Origin: a virus
Length of the DNA stretch: 20,383 nt
Direction: 5' to 3' (one strand)
Virus record (IMG/VR): IMGVR_UViG_3300049222_000072
Coordinates: 1 to 20,383 of that record
Below, in pieces: positions 2,593 to 14,194 of the stretch. Below the pieces are notes generated by a model that saw only the letters and a list, made by a program, of their open reading frames with translations, was not told the DNA's origin and did no database searches. The position numbers and the translations under genes are program-made. The number at the start of each line of letters is the position of its first letter. The stretch's first letter is position 1.

Positions 2593-3192
2593 CTAGAATG
2601 GTATATCGTCTTCAGTTAGTTCTTGTCTATCTATCTGAGCTTGAGTAGCTGCTGCCACTTGTTCGCTCATACTAACTTCGCCATCAGCAATCATTGGCTC
2701 TTCCCATACAGGAACAACAAAACCTGCTGGTCTATCTTTCCATCCTAAAAATTCAAATAAAGGTACGTTGATGTTTAATGCTTTAAGCTCAATAACCTCA
2801 TATTTATTACTAAATTGAAATACAGGAACTTTGCCTTTATTAGCTTCTATGTCCTTATAGAACTGAACAGCCATCCTTTTAAATGCCTGATACTCACCAA
2901 AGCTAAACCTTGACCATAAGAATTGACGTTTATCATTGGTATAAAGATTAATGCTAAATGCTTCTTTATAACCATCTTCAGGCTTAGGCGTTACAATGAA
3001 TGGTTTATCGCTGTATTCAGTGTTGTATGTACCATTCCACATACCCCAACCTGTTTTAATGGTATCAGGGCAAACCATAATCTTATCTAAGGTTATAGCT
3101 TCTTCATTTGAGTACCATGTTTTATCAGCGTTTTTGTGCATGATATAACTGATACCGCTACCATTATTATCATTGGAAAAAATATCTTCCAT
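2593..3192 (-). CDS. Putative single-stranded DNA-binding protein with DDIPF tail
   Basis: The 199-residue protein ends QELTEDDIPF. The acidic tail tipped DDIPF is the hallmark of bacterial SSBs, where it docks partner proteins. The body (about residues 15-150) is rich in aromatic residues and predicted strands, consistent with an OB-like fold, but I see no direct match to canonical SSB. Residues about 160-190 form a Glu/Gln/Ala-rich linker. It lies between nuclease genes and the primase-helicase, as expected for a replication SSB, and its stop abuts the primase start. A strong GGAG sits 6 bases before the ATG. The functional call rests mainly on the tail and context. Confidence 0.7.
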   Translation of the reverse strand: MEDIFSNDNNGSGISYIMHKNADKTWYSNEEAITLDKIMVCPDTIKTGWGMWNGTYNTEYSDKPFIVTPKPEDGYKEAFSINLYTNDKRQFLWSRFSFGEYQAFKRMAVQFYKDIEANKGKVPVFQFSNKYEVIELKALNINVPLFEFLGWKDRPAGFVVPVWEEPMIADGEVSMSEQVAAATQAQIDRQELTEDDIPF

Positions 3193-4360: not shown

Positions 4361-5302
4361 TTATCCAACTCTCTTTATCTTCACAAAACCAGCTCTACGT
4401 TCAGGTGCAGCTTTGTAAGTTACTTCTTTTACCTGTTCTTTCTTAGCTGGTAATGTTTTCCATTCCAACTCATATTCTGCAACCCTAGCTTTACTATGAT
4501 TGCCCATAGCCATCATTAGATCAGTCATAAGCTCCTTCTCTTTTTCTTTTGCGATCTTGATGGTTTCTTTTAATGCTTCAATTGTATCTACAATATCAAC
4601 AGTATCAGCGTGCAATATCTTTACGTTTTCATCATTACCATCGCTAAAGATAGTCGCTGCGTGTTCAGGAGTCTCAGGCGGATAATAGTCCTCTTCTTCT
4701 ATTCTTCTATCAAAGTCCAGCACTACTCTCGCCAGCTCGTCTTTATACGCTTCATCTCTTTTGTAAACGTATATGCGTAAATCAGTTGATTGGTATAGCA
4801 CAATCAAAATGCCATACTCAGCGTTTAGTATTTCCATGCTTGCGTGTAATTGATCTACGCCTAAGTATTTGGGTGGCTCTTCTGCTGATGGAAAGTCAGA
4901 GCTACATTTACATTCAATAGGTATATCTCCATTTAGGATCAGTTCTTTATGTCCTACTACATAGATTCCATTATCAGGATTATGTTCTACTTTTACATTA
5001 ACAACATTACACCTACCATCTAGTGATGCTTGTAAAGGTAATTCAGGGTGATCTATTTTATAGTCCACTTCAGGCTCTACATTCTCTATTCCTAGCCTTC
5101 TTGCTGCTTCAGTAATTAATACAGGTTCTAGTAAGTCTCCTGTAGCTTGTCTATTAGTTTGCACAAAGTTATCTACTAGCGTTCCATTCTTCTCTGCTAT
5201 CGCCTTCTTTAGACAACCATGCTTATCAAAGAATCTAGCTCTATCAAATAGTGAACATACTATTGATGATGTTGCTCTATACCAAGTTAATTTGCCTACC
5301 AT
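4361..5302 (-). CDS. YqaJ-like PD-(D/E)XK recombination exonuclease
   Basis: The 313-residue protein fits the YqaJ/lambda-exonuclease type that resects double-stranded ends for phage recombination. Key residues are E59 in GDLLEP, D95 in QASLDG, E130-C-K132 in IPIECKCS and Q151 in GVDQLHASM, in the expected order and spacing. Residues about 160-200 complete the core (GILIVLYQSTDLRIYVYKRD). The last 80 residues form a helical segment plus a basic tail, commonly found appended to YqaJ domains in phages. AAGGAG sits 6 bases before the ATG. No separate annealing protein (RecT/Erf/Beta) is recognisable nearby; the unknown 123- and 79-residue proteins just upstream are candidates only by position. 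Confidence 0.85.
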   Translation of the reverse strand: MVGKLTWYRATSSIVCSLFDRARFFDKHGCLKKAIAEKNGTLVDNFVQTNRQATGDLLEPVLITEAARRLGIENVEPEVDYKIDHPELPLQASLDGRCNVVNVKVEHNPDNGIYVVGHKELILNGDIPIECKCSSDFPSAEEPPKYLGVDQLHASMEILNAEYGILIVLYQSTDLRIYVYKRDEAYKDELARVVLDFDRRIEEEDYYPPETPEHAATIFSDGNDENVKILHADTVDIVDTIEALKETIKIAKEKEKELMTDLMMAMGNHSKARVAEYELEWKTLPAKKEQVKEVTYKAAPERRAGFVKIKRVG

Positions 5303-5674
5303 TTATCTCTCCTTGTTAATCATTTTGTTTATTTCAAAAATAGAATCACGAACTTGAACTGGCTGACTCATGCCTGCTATTTCAATAAATGTTCCTATCT
5401 CGTTTTTGTAAAAAGATTTGAGTTTTTTAACTGGAATAGTTAGAATATTTGCACAACCTAAAATGTTAAATCTAACAGTTCTGTCAGGTTGATCAGATTT
5501 ATGTAACGACTTAGATAATTTAGCTAATTTGGTTAAATATATATTATGCGAAGTCATAGAGTTCATAAAATTAAACTCTAGCTGTTTTGTAGCATAAGAA
5601 CGTTGTTTGTACTCCACTGCTGTTCTACACATATTATTTTTATCATTTATAACTATCATAGGATCACGTTGCAT
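5303..5674 (-). CDS. Hypothetical protein, 123 aa
   Basis: I do not recognise this protein. It is basic and mixed alpha/beta, with a middle segment DRTVRFNILGCANILTIPVK that looks like a beta hairpin and a helical C-terminus. The proposed start overlaps the end of the upstream 79-residue gene by 11 bases. A second ATG at 5659, just past that stop, is equally possible because neither has a good Shine-Dalgarno. The stop lies immediately before the exonuclease ATG, and the last codons (AACAAGGAGAGATAA) carry that gene's ribosome-binding site. Position suggests a recombination or early accessory function; this is guilt by association only. Confidence 0.75.
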   Translation of the reverse strand: MQRDPMIVINDKNNMCRTAVEYKQRSYATKQLEFNFMNSMTSHNIYLTKLAKLSKSLHKSDQPDRTVRFNILGCANILTIPVKKLKSFYKNEIGTFIEIAGMSQPVQVRDSIFEINKMINKER

Positions 5675-5903
5675 TTTTGTAGTAAGAACTTAAAGGTTTG
5701 CCAGTAGCTTTGCTTTTAAGTTCTGTATTCATATTCATAATTTCCAGTTGAGCTATAAAAACTTTGTTACGTTCTGCGTTAGGCGATCTAGCAATTTTCT
5801 TAAAAGATTCGTGAAGTTGTAAAAAAACATCTCTTGCATTTTTTATTTGTTCATTAGTCTCTAAAGGTACTGTCAATCTTCTAGCACGTTTTTGATAACT
5901 CAT
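5664..5903 (-). CDS. Small basic hypothetical protein, 79 aa (first gene of replication operon)
   Basis: This 79-residue protein has a basic start (MSYQKRARRL), a helical centre and a basic end (KATGKPLSSYYKNAT). There is no membrane segment and no recognisable domain. GAGGAC provides a ribosome-binding site about 6-9 bases before the ATG. It is the first gene after an AT-rich gap holding a good sigma70-like promoter candidate, so it probably opens the exonuclease-to-primase transcription unit. The size and charge would suit a nucleic-acid-binding early protein, but I do not assign a function. Confidence 0.75.
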   Translation of the reverse strand: MSYQKRARRLTVPLETNEQIKNARDVFLQLHESFKKIARSPNAERNKVFIAQLEIMNMNTELKSKATGKPLSSYYKNAT

Positions 5904-5926: not shown

Positions 5927-5955
5927 AATATATAAATTTATATTTATATGTACAA
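5927..5955 (-). promoter_or_regulatory. Sigma70-like promoter candidate for the replication/recombination operon
   Basis: On the minus strand, TTGTAC (5955-5950) is followed by a 17-base spacer and TATATT (5932-5927), close to the sigma70 consensus with ideal spacing. Transcription would start near 5920, giving a short leader to the 79-residue gene ATG at 5903. The spacer also contains TATAAATA (plus-strand 5941-5948), shared with other gaps. Confidence 0.5.
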
Positions 5956-5985: not shown

Positions 5986-6516
5986 TTAGGCTAATTTTTT
6001 GTGGGTATTTTTATATCTATTTTTAAGATATTTGTAATCATCATTATAATTATCAAAATTATGTTCAGGAAAACTAGGATGATCCTCTAAACCAAACTCT
6101 TTATAAAAGTCTGCAAACATATCACTAAAAGCATCTCTAAAAGGTTCTGATATATGTTCAGCAGTTTTTAGCTTAGCAGTAGCATCAACTATCATAAGGC
6201 GTTTTAAGAATTTTGTAGGTAATATTTTTTTTGTTCTACCATCACAACCACATTGACAAATTTCAATAAGTTTTTGATCTAACAACTGTTTTAGTTTTGT
6301 TCTTATTGTATTTTCATTAGTAATAAGCGTATTAGATAGTATTGTCATAGTCACATCCCTATCATTTATATGCTCTGTATAAATAAACTTCATTAGAAAA
6401 TCAGTCATTTTATCTATCTTAAATCCAGTTTGTGCTTCAAACATAAATTGTGCTTTTGCACATTCAACTTCATATTCAGCTATTTTTTGCACTATATGCA
6501 AATACTTTACATCCAT
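5986..6516 (-). CDS. Winged-helix DNA-binding protein with Cys-rich wing, 176 aa
   Basis: Residues about 35-105 look like a MarR-type winged helix-turn-helix: helices around FLMKFIYTEH and VTMTILSNTLI, a recognition helix TNENTIRTKLKQLLDQKLI, then a wing with GRTKKILPT. The wing carries a CxCxC cluster, C87-Q-C89-G-C91, which could bind metal or sense redox. The C-terminal 70 residues are acidic and aromatic and may mediate dimerisation. The ATG comes two bases after the stop of the recombinase-like gene, within AGGGATATAAGTATG, so the two are co-translated. It is a likely phage transcription regulator at the boundary of late and early genes. The role is inferred from fold and position. Confidence 0.72.
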   Translation of the reverse strand: MDVKYLHIVQKIAEYEVECAKAQFMFEAQTGFKIDKMTDFLMKFIYTEHINDRDVTMTILSNTLITNENTIRTKLKQLLDQKLIEICQCGCDGRTKKILPTKFLKRLMIVDATAKLKTAEHISEPFRDAFSDMFADFYKEFGLEDHPSFPEHNFDNYNDDYKYLKNRYKNTHKKLA

Positions 6517-6518
6517 AC

Positions 6519-7202
6519 TTATATCCCTAGCTCCTTAGCTTTTTTAAGTAAATTAGAGACTCCCATAGGAGTCCAAGTATTTTTCCCTCTTCGTGTCTTT
6601 ATGTTTCGTGCCATAAGAGCATTAGCAATACCCTGAAGCGTTACTTTGCCATATCGCTGTATTTCTCTTATTACTGGTATGATTTCTCCACAATATTGAT
6701 CTGCTTGCTCTATCCTGACTTTACTAGCATTTATAGTAGCTACATCTAAATTAACTGGATTGCCAGCCTTCCAGCCACTTGCCCTCTTTTTGTTTAATGC
6801 TTTCTTTGCTGTCTCGCTATATAGCTTTATCTGATCAACACATTGTAAATACATTTGATGTGCATGATATTTCCAAACACTAACTGCATTATCTAATTCA
6901 CGAATTGCATATATAAAAGGATCATTACCCTCTAGCTTCATTAATGCATTACAAAAAGCAAGACTTCTAGGTAGATGTCCTATATTTGGTATGATTAATT
7001 TAGCAGCTCTGCTGTTGCATTTCTTTACAGCTTTTTCTAGTTCAGGTTTATAGTTTTTACGCACACTGGTTTCAACAAATCTATCTATAATAGTTGCCCT
7101 ACCATTTAGTGCTTTATGTAAAAGTGCTTCTCCCCTAACCACATCTTTTGTTGATTTTATGTATACAACAAGTTTGCCATTAGCACTAATATTACTTCTC
7201 AT
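6519..7202 (-). CDS. Degenerate serine recombinase (resolvase)-like protein, probably catalytically impaired
   Basis: The 227-residue protein aligns by eye along its length with resolvase-type serine recombinases: strand LVVYIKSTKD, FVETSVRKNYKPELEKAVKKC, AAKLIIPNIGHLPRSLAFCNALM, then GNP, and a C-terminal helix-turn-helix (about 174-222) with VTLQGIANALMARNIKTRRG and GVSNLLKKA. The active site is eroded. The usual YxRVS motif is YIKS (S17 kept, Arg replaced by Lys, one residue missing). The LDRLSR motif is I74-G75-H76-L77-P78-R79, losing the conserved Asp and first Arg. I start at the ATG at 7202 because AGGAG lies 8 bases upstream; a GTG at 7220 is in frame but overlaps that site. It is paired with the winged-helix gene. 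It may have become a DNA-binding regulator or may be a relic of temperate ancestry. Confidence 0.72.
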   Translation of the reverse strand: MRSNISANGKLVVYIKSTKDVVRGEALLHKALNGRATIIDRFVETSVRKNYKPELEKAVKKCNSRAAKLIIPNIGHLPRSLAFCNALMKLEGNDPFIYAIRELDNAVSVWKYHAHQMYLQCVDQIKLYSETAKKALNKKRASGWKAGNPVNLDVATINASKVRIEQADQYCGEIIPVIREIQRYGKVTLQGIANALMARNIKTRRGKNTWTPMGVSNLLKKAKELGI

Positions 7203-7315
7203 TCTTTTATCTCCTGCCACCCATTAGAATGACAATTATATTTAACATATACATAATATATAGGAATATATATTTATATACAAATATCTAACCTATAAAA
7301 TTATAAAACCTGATC

Positions 7316-7680: not shown

Positions 7681-7751
7681 GTTATTTAACTCCATATTTA
7701 TAATTAACATACCCTTATTATACATATTTATATATAAATGTATATATTTAG

Positions 7752-7768
7752 GTATGATATTTATAAAT
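7752..7768 (-). promoter_or_regulatory. Copy of recurring ATATTTATAAAT motif (candidate promoter)
   Basis: GTATGATATTTATAAAT at 7752-7768 (plus reading) matches 14178-14194 at 16 of 17 positions. It sits between the stop of the 149-residue nuclease and the 65-residue gene, about 75 bases before its start. A second TATAAATA (plus 7725-7732) lies nearer the gene. The promoter role is inference. Confidence 0.4.
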
Positions 7769-8217
7769 TAATTTGATAGGGGATTTAACACTGGCACTGA
7801 GCTTAAAGTGTTAAGAGTTTCTTGAAGTGAATCTAATTCCATAGAATCAGTAATAATCTTTTTATCAAAAGTAAAATAGTTTTGTGAGGTAGTGTTAGGT
7901 TTAAACATGATCCTTTTATGTTCATCATAGAAAAAAACAAAGGCGAGAATATCGCAAGTGTATTGTTTGTAAGTTTCAGACATTGATCTTGAGTTCTCAG
8001 CAGCAAATACAAACTTCTTTTCTTTAGTTGCCCTTCTGCTCTTTACTTGCACTGTATATTTAGCATTACCAAACTCAACCATTAAATCTGCTGGATGTTT
8101 CTCTTGCGTTGGATAACAAAAGTCAGCGTATTCAAGTAGGAATGTTTGCGTTAATGATTCGCCTAATGCACCAAGTCTTGAATTAGCTTGATGTTGATCT
8201 GATGTTTTTCTTGGCAT
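7768..8217 (-). CDS. PD-(D/E)XK nuclease-like protein, 149 aa
   Basis: The N-terminal half carries a PD-(D/E)XK pattern: E20 in GALGESL, D44 in HPADLMVEF, and Q57-V-K59 in YTVQVKSRR, where Gln replaces the usual acidic residue as in several resolvase and restriction-type subfamilies. The next strand, CDILAFVFFYDEHKRIMFKP, is consistent with the same fold. The C-terminal 40 residues are less structured. The start overlaps the 3' end of the lysozyme gene by 35 bases. It sits outside the replication module, between lysis and regulatory genes, so it may act in genome maturation, DNA repair or host DNA degradation. No target can be inferred. Confidence 0.75.
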   Translation of the reverse strand: MPRKTSDQHQANSRLGALGESLTQTFLLEYADFCYPTQEKHPADLMVEFGNAKYTVQVKSRRATKEKKFVFAAENSRSMSETYKQYTCDILAFVFFYDEHKRIMFKPNTTSQNYFTFDKKIITDSMELDSLQETLNTLSSVPVLNPLSN

Positions 8218-9023: not shown

Positions 9024-9224
9024 TTAAATTATGTAGTCTTTCAATAAAATTAATAACATTGAAATAACTATTGTTGTAAGACCGCCTTTTATCCAGCTAT
9101 TTAAACCTTTGATATCATCATCTAACTTTTCAAAATGTTTAAATGCTGTAGTCCATCTCTCACTGCATTGTATTTCATGATTTTTCAAATCATGTGCAAC
9201 GTCATGAGCGGTCTTTCTAGGCAT
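9024..9224 (-). CDS. Small one-TM protein, XhlA/holin-accessory-like, 66 aa
   Basis: The N-terminal 45 residues are soluble and helical (HDVAHDLKNHEIQCSERWTT), and residues about 46-64 form a single membrane segment (GLTTIVISMLLILLKDYII). This layout matches XhlA-like haemolysin/holin accessory proteins common beside phage holins. It probably helps set the timing or localisation of lysis, but sequence alone cannot separate it from an antiholin. Its ATG overlaps the stop of the 85-residue gene as TAATG, and the holin start follows 3 bases after its stop. Confidence 0.7.
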   Translation of the reverse strand: MPRKTAHDVAHDLKNHEIQCSERWTTAFKHFEKLDDDIKGLNSWIKGGLTTIVISMLLILLKDYII

Positions 9225-9481
9225 TATTTCTCCTCTACCACTTCTACTTCTTCTTCAGCGTTGATTGCTCTATCAAACGATTCAATACAAAGATTCTTGT
9301 ATTCATTTGTTATGACATAATCATCATATGCTTCTTGAAGTCTAGCTAATTTTCTACCAGCTACGTTTAATTTAGCAGCTATAGCCATTTGTTCCTCATT
9401 TAGATCAGCAGCTCTATACTGCTTATCGTTATAAGTAATAATTACCTGATCTTCAGGTTTTTTCGTTTCAGTGTTTTCCAT
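9224..9481 (-). CDS. Hypothetical acidic helical protein, 85 aa
   Basis: An 85-residue acidic protein. A short strand region (QVIITYNDKQYRAADL) is followed by a long helix of coiled-coil character (EEQMAIAAKLNVAGRKLARL) and ends with a Glu-rich tail (NAEEEVEVVEEK). This order (short 'I/V-x-Y/N-G-x-x-Y' hairpin, then a helix asking for oligomerisation) resembles small phage proteins found near tail fibres and lysis genes in cyanophages and other marine phages; their role is unknown. AAAGG sits about 9 bases before the ATG. It is coupled to the XhlA-like gene by TAATG. The resemblance is from memory. Confidence 0.75.
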   Translation of the reverse strand: MENTETKKPEDQVIITYNDKQYRAADLNEEQMAIAAKLNVAGRKLARLQEAYDDYVITNEYKNLCIESFDRAINAEEEVEVVEEK

Positions 9482-9498
9482 ATATAAATACCTTTTGG

Positions 9499-9515
9499 GT
9501 TTGTTAATTATAAAT
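9499..9515 (-). promoter_or_regulatory. Divergent copy of the recurring GTTTG...TTATAAAT motif
   Basis: GTTTGTTAATTATAAAT (plus reading) matches the 14178-14194 copy at 15 of 17 positions. It lies in the 44-base gap between the 104- and 85-residue genes, upstream of the lysis genes. It could drive lysis-gene transcription. TATAAATA itself is not intact here, which weakens the promoter reading. Confidence 0.3.
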
Positions 9516-9842: not shown

Positions 9843-12800
9843 TTATTCTCTTTTTAATAAGTTAATTTCAGACTGTAAGGCTTCAATCTGTGCTTGTTGT
9901 TCTTGTATAGCTTTAGTTAAAAGAGGTACAAGTTTGCTTTGATCTATTCCTTGATATTCAGGATTGCCTTCATCATCAACTGCATCTTTTTCACCAGTAA
10001 TAGCTTCAGGAACTATGTCTTGTACTTCGTGAGCTAAGAAACCATCAACTGTTGTATCTGCATCAGCTATAAAGTTAAATCTAGCTGGTTTTAGCTGTAC
10101 AACTCTATCAAGAGCATTAAATTCATAATCTACATTTTCTTTTAATCTGTAGTCTGAAGATGTGTTGAAAGATGTTGATGAACCACTTGTTCTAATACTG
10201 CCTACTGTTCCGTTAGGATTTTGAAATACTGCGACACCTGTGCCTGATGTGGTAGAAGTTCCTAAAAATAAAACCATCCTGTCATTAGATGCTGAAGAAA
10301 AATAAGCATGAGTAGTTCCTTTAGTCGTAGTACCCACCAACACGTTGCCTTCACTATCAATACGTAGCCTTTCATTTACATCATTTGAAACAATTCTAAG
10401 CGAATCAGTAGATTCTTCATTTTGTATTCTCCACCATTGACCTCTACCTGAATCAGATAATACAACGGAAGCATTTGTAGCTTCAACGTGTAATGGTGCA
10501 TCAGGAGTACTTGTTCCAATTCCAAGTCTAGTATTAGTTAAATCAAAAACAGAATGTACACCAGTTGATGCTGTATCTGTACCTTTTAATAATCTTAAAT
10601 AGTCTGCCCCACCTGTAGAATATGCATCCAAATGTGCAGCTAAAGAGCCGTTAGTTGATGATTGTAAAACTAATTGTCCGCCTTCAGCACCACCAGCACC
10701 TGAAGGTTTACCAATATGTAGAGTTGATTCTGTGCCTAAACTTGTTGTACCTATGCCTACTGCACCTAAACCATCAATACGGACTCTTTCTATAAAGCTA
10801 GTAGTGCCTTTATAATAACCACCAAATATCATGTCTGATGTTCTAGAAGCTGTTGTTGTATTCCCAAAATAAATAGTTCCAGAACTTCTGTTTGTGTTTG
10901 TTTGTGACGGAGTATTAGAATTAGCAAACAATAAGTTGGAAGATATACCACCATTTAATGCATCTCCTGATGACCATAAAGAAACACCATTCATTACTCC
11001 GTTATTTGTAGTGCCACCATAAAAAACTGTAGCAACATTTGTATAAGTAGGAGCTACTCCAGAAACGTGTAATATAGCCTGTGGTGAAGTAACTCCAATT
11101 CCAACGTTGCCATTACTACCTTCAATTTTAACTTTTGTAGCACCACCTGATTGTAAATAAATATCAGGCGTTCCACTTTCACCAGCATCTAAAATTAAAT
11201 CATTTACACCACCAGCACGAATAGTACCACCAGCAGTCATAATTAAGTTGCCTAATGAATCAACACGGAGTCTTTCTATTGAACTTGCACCACCTGATGC
11301 TGTTCTAAATGCAAACTCTCCACCAGTTCCACTAGCACCATAAGAAACAAATCTTGTTACGCCACCTGAAAAGTCCATAGCAGCAGTAGATGTTCTGTCA
11401 TCTACTAAAGCACCTGTTATAGCTAATGCACCATTGACTGTTAGTTTTTCAGTAGGACTACTCGTACCAATTCCAACCCTATTATTGGTAGAATCAACAA
11501 CTAAAGTAGAGGTATCAACAGTTAAACCATCAGCCACAACTGTACCTGTTACGTCTATGCCTGTTGAGGTTGTATTAAGAACTGTTGAGCCTAAATGTTT
11601 TAAAGCAACAGTTCCACCATTACCTCCATCGGTACAAGTTAAATAGTCATAACCGTCTGAATCTTGTAATTGTAAGTTTGTTCCTCTAACTAAAAGGCTA
11701 CCAGTTCCAGCTTCTTGTATTCTTGAATTAGAACCATCGTGATAAATCTGTAAATCTGAACCTGCTCCAAAGATGGCTTTATCACTATCAGCAAATAATA
11801 TGTCATTACCATTAGATGCTAAATCACCACCAAGCTGAGGAGTTGTATCTTCTACAACATTGTTAATAGAAACAGCTTGTACTCTAGCATCAGTGTAATA
11901 AAGATTAGAGCCTTCTGATAAATCGCCAGTATCTTTTGTTGCAAGTCTTGTATCAAAATCAGAGTTAGCTCTTGCACTTGTATAATATAAATTACTACCC
12001 TCAGATAAATCAGATGTAGATTTACCGCTAAAAGCAGAATTAAATCTAGTTGTTGTGTAGTAAAGATTGCTTGATCCCTCAGATAGATCGTCAGTATCTT
12101 TTGTTCCAAGTCTTGTATCAAATCTTGCATCAGTGTAATAAAGATTAGTTCCTTCTGATAAGTCTGATGTTGAATGATTGCTAATGCTTGAAACTGTACC
12201 TGTAACTGCTCCAGTAACATCACCTTCAATATTAGCAACTAAAGTACCAAGCGAGCTTAATGTAATATTACCTGTAGAAGTACCATCTGCTGTTGTTAAT
12301 CCTAGTGTAAATTTATCAACAGACTCATCCCACATAAATATACCATTATGCTGATCACCCCTATTGATTAACATACCTGAGTCATTAACTGGTGATCCTG
12401 TTAATCCTGCATTAAGTTGGAATAAGTTATCTTCTATATCTAGGTTAGTAGTATCAAGAGAAGTAAGAGTTCCATTGACTGTTAGATTACCTGCTACTGT
12501 TAAGCTATCTGCAATCTGAACATCATCAGGTAGCGATAGTGTTATAGCTGCAGACTCACTTCCACTACCTGATACTGAAACCTTATTTGCTGTACCTGTA
12601 ATAGTTGCAACATAGTTACCTGTAGTGTCAGTACCTAATGCAACTGAATTAGCATCTACACTTGATGCTTGTATTCCTAGTGCATCAACAAATGCTTTAG
12701 TAACTCTTGTATCAATAGCACTATTAGCTCTAGTGTCTGTATAGTAAAAATTAGCTGAACCCTCAGAAACATCATCAGTATCTAATACGACAGCACCAGT

Positions 12801-14144
12801 TTGAGTATTTACACTTGTTACAGGAGCAGTAGATTGTGTAAAACTTATAACACCTGTTGAGCTATCATAAGAAATATCTCCGCTTGCAGATATTGCACTT
12901 CTTGATCTTGCATCAGTGTAGTAAACATTAGTAGAGCCTTCACTTAAATCGTCTGTATCTTTTCCTGCAAATGCAGAATCAAATCTTGTTGTTGTGTAAT
13001 ATAAATTAGTACCTTCTGATAAATCTGATGTAGATTTAGTTGCAAGTCTTGTATCAAAATCTGCATTAGCTCTAGCACTTGTATAGTATAAATTTGATGA
13101 TCCTTCGCTAACTGTATCTGTATCGCCTTGAGTAAAAGATAAAACACCTGTTGTTGAGTTATAAGATAATTGTGTTGAATCTTCGCTTATAGAAGCTCTT
13201 GCTCTAGCATCAGTATAATAAAGGTTAGTACCTTCAGATAAATCGCTTGTTGATTTAGCAGTAAAAGCAGAATCAAAACGTGTTTGAGTGTAATAAAGAT
13301 TGCTTGTACCTTCGCTTAAATCATCAGTATCTTTTGTAGCTAATCTTGTATCAAAAACAGTATTTGCTCTTGCATCTGTATAGTAAAGGTTAGTCGAACC
13401 CTCTCCAATATCATCAGTATCTAAAGTTAATGTTCCGCCTAAAGATAATGCATTAGAATTTATTGTTACGCTTGCATTAACTAGTTTTGCATTTGCTATT
13501 GATCCAGCAAGCATAGCATTAGTTATTCCTAATGCTTTTACTTGTAATGCATCGCTATCAATTTCTATTGAAGAATCGTCAACTGCTACATTTAAAGTAA
13601 CAGTTCCAGCAGTTCCGCCACCAGTTAAACCATTACCTGCAACAACACCTGTAATATCGGCATCGTTTGTATTAGCTATAGTTAGAGTGCCAGCAGTATC
13701 ATCATAAGTAAGTTGTATACCTGTACCAGCTTGTAATAATGTATTTACTTGATCATCTACTCTTTCATTTGTGAAATATAAGTTTGATGATCCTTCACTA
13801 ACTGAATCAGTATCAAATGATATGTTGGCACTACCATCAAATGATGTTCCATTAATTGTTCTTGCAGTTGCTAAAGTTGTAGCTGTATCTGCATTACCAG
13901 TTATATTTCCTGTAAATGTATTAGATGCAGTAATACTTACGCCTGTTGTAATCCAATCGTTGTTTGCAGCGTTTCTTATCTTTAATACATTACTTGATGT
14001 ATCTACCCATAATTGATGTGCAAATGTAGTAGATGGCTCAGTAGCTCCGCTATTAACAGTTGCAATAGCAGATAAAGCATTATTTAAATCTGCTCTAAAA
14101 TCCGCACCTGATTGGTTTGCTAAGTTGTAATCGTGTTGTGCCAT
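9843..14144 (-). CDS. Tail fibre with SEG-YYT repeats and C-terminal peptidase S74 chaperone domain
   Basis: A 1433-residue receptor-binding fibre. Residues 1-110 form an N-terminal attachment-like region (AQHDYNLANQSGADFRADLN and LWVDTSSNVLKIRN). Residues 116-480 and 660-755 carry 12 copies of a motif of the form D-x-(S/T)-EG-(S/T)-NLYYT-x-x-R. A middle part (MLINRGDQHNGIFMWDESVD) and a long Gly/Thr/Ser-rich beta-structured shaft (IYHDGSNSRIQ and repeated GIGTSSP modules) follow. The C-terminus (1329-1433) is an S74 intramolecular chaperone: S1330-D-Y-R-L-K1335-E-N is the Ser/Lys dyad for self-cleavage, then GFLAHEVQDIVPEAITG and a coiled-coil end. After trimerisation it should cleave itself between S1329 and S1330. 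AGGA lies 7 bases before the ATG. Confidence 0.92.
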   Translation of the reverse strand: MAQHDYNLANQSGADFRADLNNALSAIATVNSGATEPSTTFAHQLWVDTSSNVLKIRNAANNDWITTGVSITASNTFTGNITGNADTATTLATARTINGTSFDGSANISFDTDSVSEGSSNLYFTNERVDDQVNTLLQAGTGIQLTYDDTAGTLTIANTNDADITGVVAGNGLTGGGTAGTVTLNVAVDDSSIEIDSDALQVKALGITNAMLAGSIANAKLVNASVTINSNALSLGGTLTLDTDDIGEGSTNLYYTDARANTVFDTRLATKDTDDLSEGTSNLYYTQTRFDSAFTAKSTSDLSEGTNLYYTDARARASISEDSTQLSYNSTTGVLSFTQGDTDTVSEGSSNLYYTSARANADFDTRLATKSTSDLSEGTNLYYTTTRFDSAFAGKDTDDLSEGSTNVYYTDARSRSAISASGDISYDSSTGVISFTQSTAPVTSVNTQTGAVVLDTDDVSEGSANFYYTDTRANSAIDTRVTKAFVDALGIQASSVDANSVALGTDTTGNYVATITGTANKVSVSGSGSESAAITLSLPDDVQIADSLTVAGNLTVNGTLTSLDTTNLDIEDNLFQLNAGLTGSPVNDSGMLINRGDQHNGIFMWDESVDKFTLGLTTADGTSTGNITLSSLGTLVANIEGDVTGAVTGTVSSISNHSTSDLSEGTNLYYTDARFDTRLGTKDTDDLSEGSSNLYYTTTRFNSAFSGKSTSDLSEGSNLYYTSARANSDFDTRLATKDTGDLSEGSNLYYTDARVQAVSINNVVEDTTPQLGGDLASNGNDILFADSDKAIFGAGSDLQIYHDGSNSRIQEAGTGSLLVRGTNLQLQDSDGYDYLTCTDGGNGGTVALKHLGSTVLNTTSTGIDVTGTVVADGLTVDTSTLVVDSTNNRVGIGTSSPTEKLTVNGALAITGALVDDRTSTAAMDFSGGVTRFVSYGASGTGGEFAFRTASGGASSIERLRVDSLGNLIMTAGGTIRAGGVNDLILDAGESGTPDIYLQSGGATKVKIEGSNGNVGIGVTSPQAILHVSGVAPTYTNVATVFYGGTTNNGVMNGVSLWSSGDALNGGISSNLLFANSNTPSQTNTNRSSGTIYFGNTTTASRTSDMIFGGYYKGTTSFIERVRIDGLGAVGIGTTSLGTESTLHIGKPSGAGGAEGGQLVLQSSTNGSLAAHLDAYSTGGADYLRLLKGTDTASTGVHSVFDLTNTRLGIGTSTPDAPLHVEATNASVVLSDSGRGQWWRIQNEESTDSLRIVSNDVNERLRIDSEGNVLVGTTTKGTTHAYFSSASNDRMVLFLGTSTTSGTGVAVFQNPNGTVGSIRTSGSSTSFNTSSDYRLKENVDYEFNALDRVVQLKPARFNFIADADTTVDGFLAHEVQDIVPEAITGEKDAVDDEGNPEYQGIDQSKLVPLLTKAIQEQQAQIEALQSEINLLKRE
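11880..12167 (-). repeat. Second block of SEG-NLYYT fibre repeats (4 copies)
   Basis: Residues about 660-755 of the fibre contain four DLSEG-NLYYT-x-x-R units about 25-32 residues apart. They are separated from the first block by about 180 residues of different sequence. DNA of the units is similar but not identical, for example repeated GTATAATAAAGATTAG-like strings. This suggests internal duplication of a module. Confidence 0.75.
12705..13799 (-). repeat. First block of SEG-NLYYT fibre repeats (8 copies)
   Basis: Residues about 116-480 contain eight copies of the S-EG-S-NLYYT-x-x-R motif, several followed by FDTRLATK or FDSAF. Spacing is irregular, with two inserted segments of the form Y(D/N)STTGVLSFTQG. 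The repeats occur widely in marine phage fibres, as I recall. They probably build a repeated shaft section. Confidence 0.75.
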
Positions 14145-14177
14145 ATTAAAATCCTATTTTATTAATTTTATACCTAT

Positions 14178-14194
14178 GTTTGATATTTATAAAT
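14178..14194 (-). promoter_or_regulatory. Best copy of recurring GTTTGATATTTATAAAT motif (candidate fibre promoter)
   Basis: Located in the 65-base gap before the fibre gene, with TATAAATA on the transcribed strand about 40 bases upstream of its ATG. The 14-base core is identical to 4269-4282, and the full 17 bases differ at one position from 7752-7768. It may allow the highly expressed fibre to be transcribed separately. Confidence 0.45.

Follow-up and report, generated by a model that had tools for sequence, protein, structure and literature searches.

Related systems described so far

A serine recombinase that also controls transcription is known from Tn3, where the resolvase is reported to autoregulate tnpR and tnpA through its binding to res (PMC7157771). 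Tn3 TnpR resembles the protein considered here, in the role we propose for it, in being a serine recombinase that acts as a repressor with promoters inside its own site, but it is an active recombinase and uses paired half-sites in res rather than single sites spread over many operons. TldR proteins are phage transcription factors that derive from TnpB and are nuclease-dead (PMC13418256); like the proposed regulator they go back to an enzyme of a mobile element which phages domesticated, its catalysis being lost and its DNA binding retained, whereas their RNA guidance and unrelated fold set them apart. Phage phi29 p4 is a DNA-binding protein whose sites lie over early and late promoters and which drives the early/late switch (PMC3100819). 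Its layout would be like that proposed for the phages described below, in which candidate 17-bp sites (with a putative binder) are found at early promoters and before late genes; unlike our protein, to which no sequence relation is shown, p4 acts jointly with p6 and recognizes A-tracts and an inverted repeat. A repressor recombinase, a dead-enzyme regulator and an early/late DNA binder are each known. The literature searched contained no example of all three united in one dead serine recombinase, and no paper that describes serine recombinases without catalysis as regulators.

The DNA analyzed here (the window) is a stretch of 20,383 nucleotides, positions 1 to 20,383 of the IMG/VR virus record IMGVR_UViG_3300049222_000072. 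At positions 6519-7202 of its minus strand it carries a gene, below called rec-like, whose 227-aa product is identified by its ORF, Pfam, hhalign and AlphaFold (AF2) as a degenerate homologue of small serine recombinases. Small serine recombinases of plasmids (e.g., Roseomonas marmotae WP_207451261.1, with PF00239 and a C-terminal Recombinase/HTH_62-like part) are collinear with it over the full length; they have ca. 220-240 aa, the same domain order and a similar C-terminal part. The plasmid proteins keep YxRVST..Q, the RP Arg and AKLDRLxR, whereas the rec-like family has lost these as well as the QGxSGLGL loop. A cultured phage, MEP301 of Methylophilales OM43 (MW452941.1, PMC8024684), has its gp04 in the rec-like slot, directly upstream of a YqaJ exonuclease that is 31% identical to the window exonuclease (E 6e-20). 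Unlike rec-like, gp04 has an intact catalytic set (YLRIST, AKTDRVAR, DRPQL); neither a winged-helix gene behind gp04 nor a 17-bp motif site was found in MEP301.

The MEP301 paper considered that a functional serine recombinase may be absent, since PF07508 was not found (PMC8024684). Contrary to that conclusion, gp04 (locus L149, MW452941.1, 935-1624) contains a complete small-resolvase catalytic set. Intact small serine recombinases, often annotated as “hypothetical”, are also encoded by Stephanstirmvirinae (phAPEC8 YP_007348417.1, phi92 gp053) and Vibrio phage 1.170.O. A “resolvase domain” annotation in a phage is no evidence of recombination or lysogeny.

The rec-like protein is related to small serine recombinases

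The rec-like reading frame starts with an ATG at position 7202 that is preceded by GGAG, and relatives have the same start; a GTG at 7220 would give a longer ORF and is less likely. With the single sequence, Pfam retrieved Resolvase (residues 27-142, E 0.015) and Recombinase (residues 176-221, E 0.004); the two matches are collinear, although neither reaches its curated cut-off. A tblastn search of plasmids returned 110 records (best E 3e-17), and the matches listed are mostly annotated “recombinase family protein”. When a profile of 15 phage homologues was compared by hhalign with 8 intact plasmid recombinases, the two aligned over 209 columns with a probability of 99.8% (E 2e-30). Taken together, these matches exclude chance as the source of the similarity; the resolvase relation, weak by single sequence, is nevertheless real.

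The AF2 model built from 15 sequences (pLDDT 82, pTM 0.57) has the beta-alpha order of resolvases, after which come a long helix and the C-terminal helices. A fold search of the PDB with this model gave three matches below 0.001, all of them serine integrases, with TM-scores of 0.32-0.35, values as low as expected if domain placement differs; a PDB search with the single sequence gave only noise. The C-terminal helical part, predicted to bind DNA (Pfam Recombinase/HTH_62-like, residues 176-225, positions 6528-6677, minus strand), is recognized by Pfam, AF2 and conservation and is the best conserved third of the protein in most relatives. The protein thus combines a collinear catalytic fold with a C-terminal DNA-binding part, as serine recombinase homologues do, and at 227 aa it is not a large serine integrase, a group defined by a length of at least 450 aa and by zinc-ribbon and coiled-coil domains. 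A resolvase layout with a C-terminal helix-turn-helix had been suggested by the first-pass annotation; the hhalign match and the order of elements in the model bear this out, and a different fold, checked for by AlphaFold and profile comparison, was not what we found.

Searches of known phages with the rec-like protein and with the whole-window DNA returned no match. A scan of the genome collection with the degenerate rec-like profile was also without a match, and therefore there is no sign of the degenerate family in cellular genomes. Matches of rec-like to Pfam Lactonase (E 2e-4, below the cut-off) and to NCBIfam 6-phosphogluconolactonase were discarded, each being one short stretch that is not common to the family.

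Catalytic residues are replaced throughout the family

Residue numbers of gamma-delta resolvase are given as we take them to fall on the rec-like alignment. Residues 14-18 (YIKST, positions 7149-7163, minus strand) occupy the Y-x-R-x-S(T) position, with Lys in place of Arg, and residues 74-79 (IGHLPR, positions 6966-6983, minus strand) occupy the LDRLxR position, where Asp and the first Arg are lost and the last Arg is kept. The family alignment agrees with the first-pass annotation, which had quoted YIKS (residues 14-17) and IGHLPR (74-79) and had noted the absence of Asp and the first Arg from the latter. The losses it named are correct, but the list was incomplete, since the RP-motif Arg (R45) is Lys in the degenerate family and the 8-residue active-site loop QGxSGLGL is deleted relative to intact relatives. 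Its choice of S17 as the catalytic Ser is insecure: in an ungapped alignment T18 occupies the Ser column, in which T, S, K, I, A, V or E is found across the family, and with a one-residue gap residue 17 falls there, with S or N, so that both columns vary.

As can be seen from the alignment with intact relatives, the R8 position is Lys in the core clade. The D67 position is Gly or Ser in the degenerate family, Asp being kept only in the L021/L049 group, where the neighbouring Arg and the Ser are lost; the R68 position is His, Tyr or Ala. R71 (R79 in rec-like) is the only residue of LDRLxR kept in the core clade, and in L107 and L126/L127 the entire catalytic set is lost. The rec-like family does not conserve the Arg and Ser of Y-x-R-x-S, and of the Asp-Arg pair, the final Arg of LDRLxR and the RP Arg it keeps the final Arg alone. 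Because these defining features of an active enzyme were tested and are missing, rec-like is not counted among active serine recombinases. Loss of the catalytic set is well supported by the alignment, and we infer that no residual catalysis is left.

The degenerate family forms one group and is under purifying selection

Using the rec-like protein, profiles and the exonuclease as queries, we gathered from IMG/VR 27 distinct homologues belonging to a marine-phage clade, and all 27 are catalytically degenerate. In a tree of these proteins with 17 intact ones, the degenerate proteins lie on one side of a branch with support of 93/95, and the split is present in 94% of bootstrap trees. Since the degenerate side is one branch but L107 and L126/L127 are long-branched, a single loss of catalysis in this clade is likely but not certain.

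The dN/dS ratio of the rec-like gene is 0.06-0.30 (13 pairs), which indicates that the gene is under selection and is no pseudogene. In most gene pairs pN is lowest in the C-terminal part (0.02-0.15 at high pS), and the ORF is full length in all complete copies. Purifying selection is, by these substitution patterns, well supported. Much as in the TldR concept, catalysis has been lost while the gene stays under selection in a new gene neighbourhood. The first-pass annotation had made a distinct family conditional on many related phages sharing the degenerate motif; an eroded catalytic part joined to an intact DNA-binding part is indeed common to a whole family, with 27 distinct proteins under purifying selection. 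Nor is this copy the only mutated one, since mutated copies are many and the intact homologues are those of plasmids and other phages.

The genomic slot and the MarR-like partner

One edge of the slot that houses rec-like is the YqaJ/RecE-like exonuclease gene (4361-5302, minus strand; phrog_434, E 3.5e-26), the syntenic anchor of our slot survey, and the other is a PDDEXK-like gene of cluster c4 (7768-8217, minus strand), assigned by a weak PDDEXK_5 match and by synteny in 35 loci. Core phages carry, one after the other, the lysis genes, the PDDEXK-like gene, small genes, rec-like, the MarR-like gene, c3, c6 and the exonuclease. In a sister group (L085-L105, L108, L125) lysis genes and exonuclease are present, the PDDEXK-like and small genes are mostly present, and the whole rec-like block is absent. 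More distant phages have an intact recombinase in the same slot upstream of the exonuclease, namely nine contigs (five of the L109 group and four of the L116/L118 group) and the cultured MEP301. Intact-recombinase phages differ in head and tail genes, and the slot is therefore recognized by the exonuclease, at only ~30% identity. Since related phages, including a cultured one, still have the intact version in this slot, a direct comparison of the states before and after is possible. In the contigs tested we found neither a tyrosine integrase nor an HTH_3 repressor or ParA.

Two further contigs deserve mention. Contig G015 (L129/L130; 31,984 bp) has an intact PF00239 match near an end repeat; a direct terminal repeat of ~123 bp makes it look complete, with the exonuclease at the other end and the recombinase upstream. 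L082, which is related to the rec-like clade and represents the one loss within it, is without rec-like, MarR-like, c3 and c6, has two small unknown ORFs instead, and its P1R site (see below) is degenerate; since just this one site differs from its relatives, L082 is weak evidence and was set aside as a clean natural knock-out.

The gene that begins 2 nt past the rec-like stop (5986-6516, minus strand) encodes a 176-aa winged-helix protein, identified as MarR-like by profile search, AF2 and Pfam. Its profile (A6) matches MarR regulators of the PDB with E 1.1e-6, which places it among MarR proteins, and its AF2 model has a pLDDT of 83.7; Pfam HTH_27/MarR matches were obtained for 3-6 of 14 partner members, and the window member alone is without one. 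The first reading of the sequence had proposed that rec-like is paired at the late/early boundary with a gene for a winged-helix protein, and this was confirmed here. In nearer phages a MarR-like gene comes after the degenerate rec-like gene in nearly all cases. The second genes of L107 (E 0.0015, probability 17%) and L126 were rejected as MarR-like homologues, the former as weak and the latter as unsupported, and so the pairing cannot be claimed as constant outside the core clade. The distributions of c3, c6, c11 and the MarR-like gene nearly coincide with that of rec-like. The small c3 protein (5664-5903), which co-occurs with rec-like, begins with R-x-T-V-P, much as ribbon-helix-helix proteins do, and may be another candidate for DNA binding.

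An asymmetric 17-bp motif accompanies rec-like

The predicted promoter of rec-like, P2 (TTGTAT-17-TATATT, 7255-7283, minus strand), is conserved among phages with rec-like proteins down to ~44% identity. A second predicted promoter, P1 (TATACA-16-TATAAT, 7717-7744, minus strand), lies by its sequence at the late/early boundary. A first promoter pattern with mismatches allowed gave no useful matches. A third AT-rich promoter-like element (TTGTAC...TATATT, window 5927-5954) stands upstream of the gene at 5664-5903 and recurs in G003 and G004, with no strong 17-bp site.

Inspection, post hoc, of sequence common to the surroundings of P2 and P1 revealed a non-palindromic 17-bp motif, GGGTATGTTAATTATAA, which flanks the two early promoters and also precedes lysis, tail-fibre and head genes. 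Seven sites, taken from the window phage, G003 and G004, served to build a matrix, with which whole contigs were scanned at a threshold of at least 14 bits. Seven contigs with rec-like (178 kb) contain 38 sites, compared with 1.76 +/- 1.76 (maximum 9) for 100 column-permuted control matrices; six contigs without rec-like (168 kb, same GC) contain 2 sites vs. 1.54 in the control, i.e., chance level. Best scores in the slot are 12.4-22.9 at 19 loci with rec-like and 0.9-10.6 at 16 loci without it, with no overlap (p 4e-7, a value that ignores relatedness and the shorter slots of loci without rec-like). Because presence or absence of the gene largely follows two phage clades, co-occurrence of motif and gene is not independent for each phage. 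Tail-fibre and head-gene sites and held-out phages, which were absent from the matrix, also score. No site reaches 14 bits in the most distant degenerate relatives (L107, L126, L127 and L083).

The window phage has six sites of at least 14 bits, all intergenic. At P2, site P2A (AGGTTAGATATTTGTAT, 7278-7294, minus strand, 16.5 bits) overlaps the -35 element, and site P2B (GTATATGTTAAATATAA, 7236-7252, minus strand), 2 bp past the -10 element, is weak in the window phage (8.9 bits) and strong in relatives (20.8 bits); an earlier view of P2 as a palindromic operator was dropped in favour of these two direct sites. At P1, site P1R (7698-7714, minus strand, 22.9 bits), whose sequence is that given above for the motif, is 2 bp past the -10 element, and site P1L (AGGTATGATATTTATAA, 7750-7766, plus strand, 20.5 bits) is just upstream of the -35 element. 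P2A and P2B are direct and 42 bp apart (~4 helical turns), while P1L and P1R are inverted and 52-53 bp apart (~5 helical turns). The lysis-group site (9497-9513, plus strand, 23.2 bits) is upstream of the heading gene 9224-9481; phages without rec-like have this gene but not the site. The tail-fibre site (14176-14192, plus strand, 15.7 bits) is upstream of gene 9843-14144 and is found at the same place in G003, G005, G010 and G011; the head-gene site is located outside the window. In core phages nearly all sites are intergenic and ahead of the same genes. All late sites have the opposite orientation and precede their genes by 24-83 bp, with spacing that is nearly constant between phages. Phages without rec-like keep a promoter at P1, and the flanking 17-bp sites are missing.

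A proposed role for rec-like in the early/late switch

We consider it just about probable that the dead recombinase has been kept as an early/late transcription switch that binds the predicted 17-bp sites. A stronger form, in which catalysis was lost once in the ancestor of the marine clade and the protein became the master early/late switch through helically phased single half-sites at early promoters and late operons, is offered tentatively and has less than an even chance. The ancestor would have been an ordinary small serine recombinase of the resolvase/invertase type, encoded upstream of a phage exonuclease. One large clade of marine phages lost the catalytic residues and the active-site loop, retaining the fold, the long helix with a basic arm and the C-terminal helix-turn-helix region. 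The protein may now be a sequence-specific transcription regulator, the first gene behind its own conserved σ70-type promoter, made together with the MarR-like protein and occupying asymmetric 17-bp sites. At P1 and P2 one site lies at or upstream of the -35 element and the other, 2 bp past the -10 element, would cover the start point; with a distance of 42 or 52-53 bp between the sites, their occupants could face one another on either side of the promoter and thereby close it. The single reversed sites 24-83 bp before lysis, tail-fibre and head genes could serve late transcription. The idea of repurposing had been raised by the first-pass annotation, and its regulator version gains indirect support from the conserved promoter and from a motif that tracks the gene, whereas nothing specific was found for a site-binding partner in replication. 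If true, this would be a plain example of how a recombinase became a regulator, and an unknown group of marine phages would gain a concrete regulatory circuit with defined sites.

That the motif is bound by rec-like and not by its partner, and that the same protein would both repress early promoters and serve late ones, we infer from the arrangement described above. The MarR-like protein, or c3, c6 or c11, could be the binder, since their distribution is nearly the same as that of rec-like, and the dead recombinase would then be accessory or otherwise employed; we regard this as unlikely but worth keeping in mind. MarR-type regulators are standard repressors, and the gene is next to rec-like and has matching profiles. 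MarR dimers usually bind palindromes, whereas the motif is asymmetric, as expected of a recombinase half-site; moreover, the incomplete 14.9-kb contig L018/G005 keeps four sites without any winged-helix homologue. The asymmetry of the site, its phasing by helical turns and the case of L018 favour rec-like as the candidate binder. On the sense strand the late sites have the sequence TATAAWTA, shortly before lysis, tail-fibre and head genes, and could therefore be promoter elements; the motif as a late promoter element (TTATAAWTAWCAAACCC) for host RNA polymerase plus some phage factor, with rec-like unrelated, is nonetheless improbable. The P2 sites and the downstream P1 site are antisense, at fixed distances from another good σ70-like promoter, and phages that lack rec-like retain the P1 promoter without the sites.

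Two other readings concern the protein itself. The fold is kept, and some catalytic positions hold polar residues that are strongly conserved, so one may ask whether rec-like still recombines or nicks DNA, e.g., as a resolvase, via an altered active site (K16, K52, R79, H76). This appears very unlikely, given variable columns 17 and 18 and hence no conserved nucleophile, replacement of the Asp and first Arg of LDRLxR and of the Arg of YxRxS, deletion of the active-site loop, and Tyr or Ala in place of H76 in some members. That rec-like is a functionless, decaying remnant of a lysogeny module would fit the lack of integrase, repressor and ParA genes in the contigs tested, but it is hardly credible: the ORF is full length in all complete copies, promoter and start are conserved, and the dN/dS values already contradict it. 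The dead recombinase as an early/late switch is accordingly the reading we prefer.

Repeats of TTCGCATAATATATAT, similar to one arm of Xer dif, are present in rec-like leaders of L057 (~2900-3010), L073, L080, L004, L006 and L019. Those of L057, L073 and L080 were set aside as Xer attachment sites, one arm alone fitting. In the L057 leader, TTCGCATAATATATAT occurs twice in tandem.
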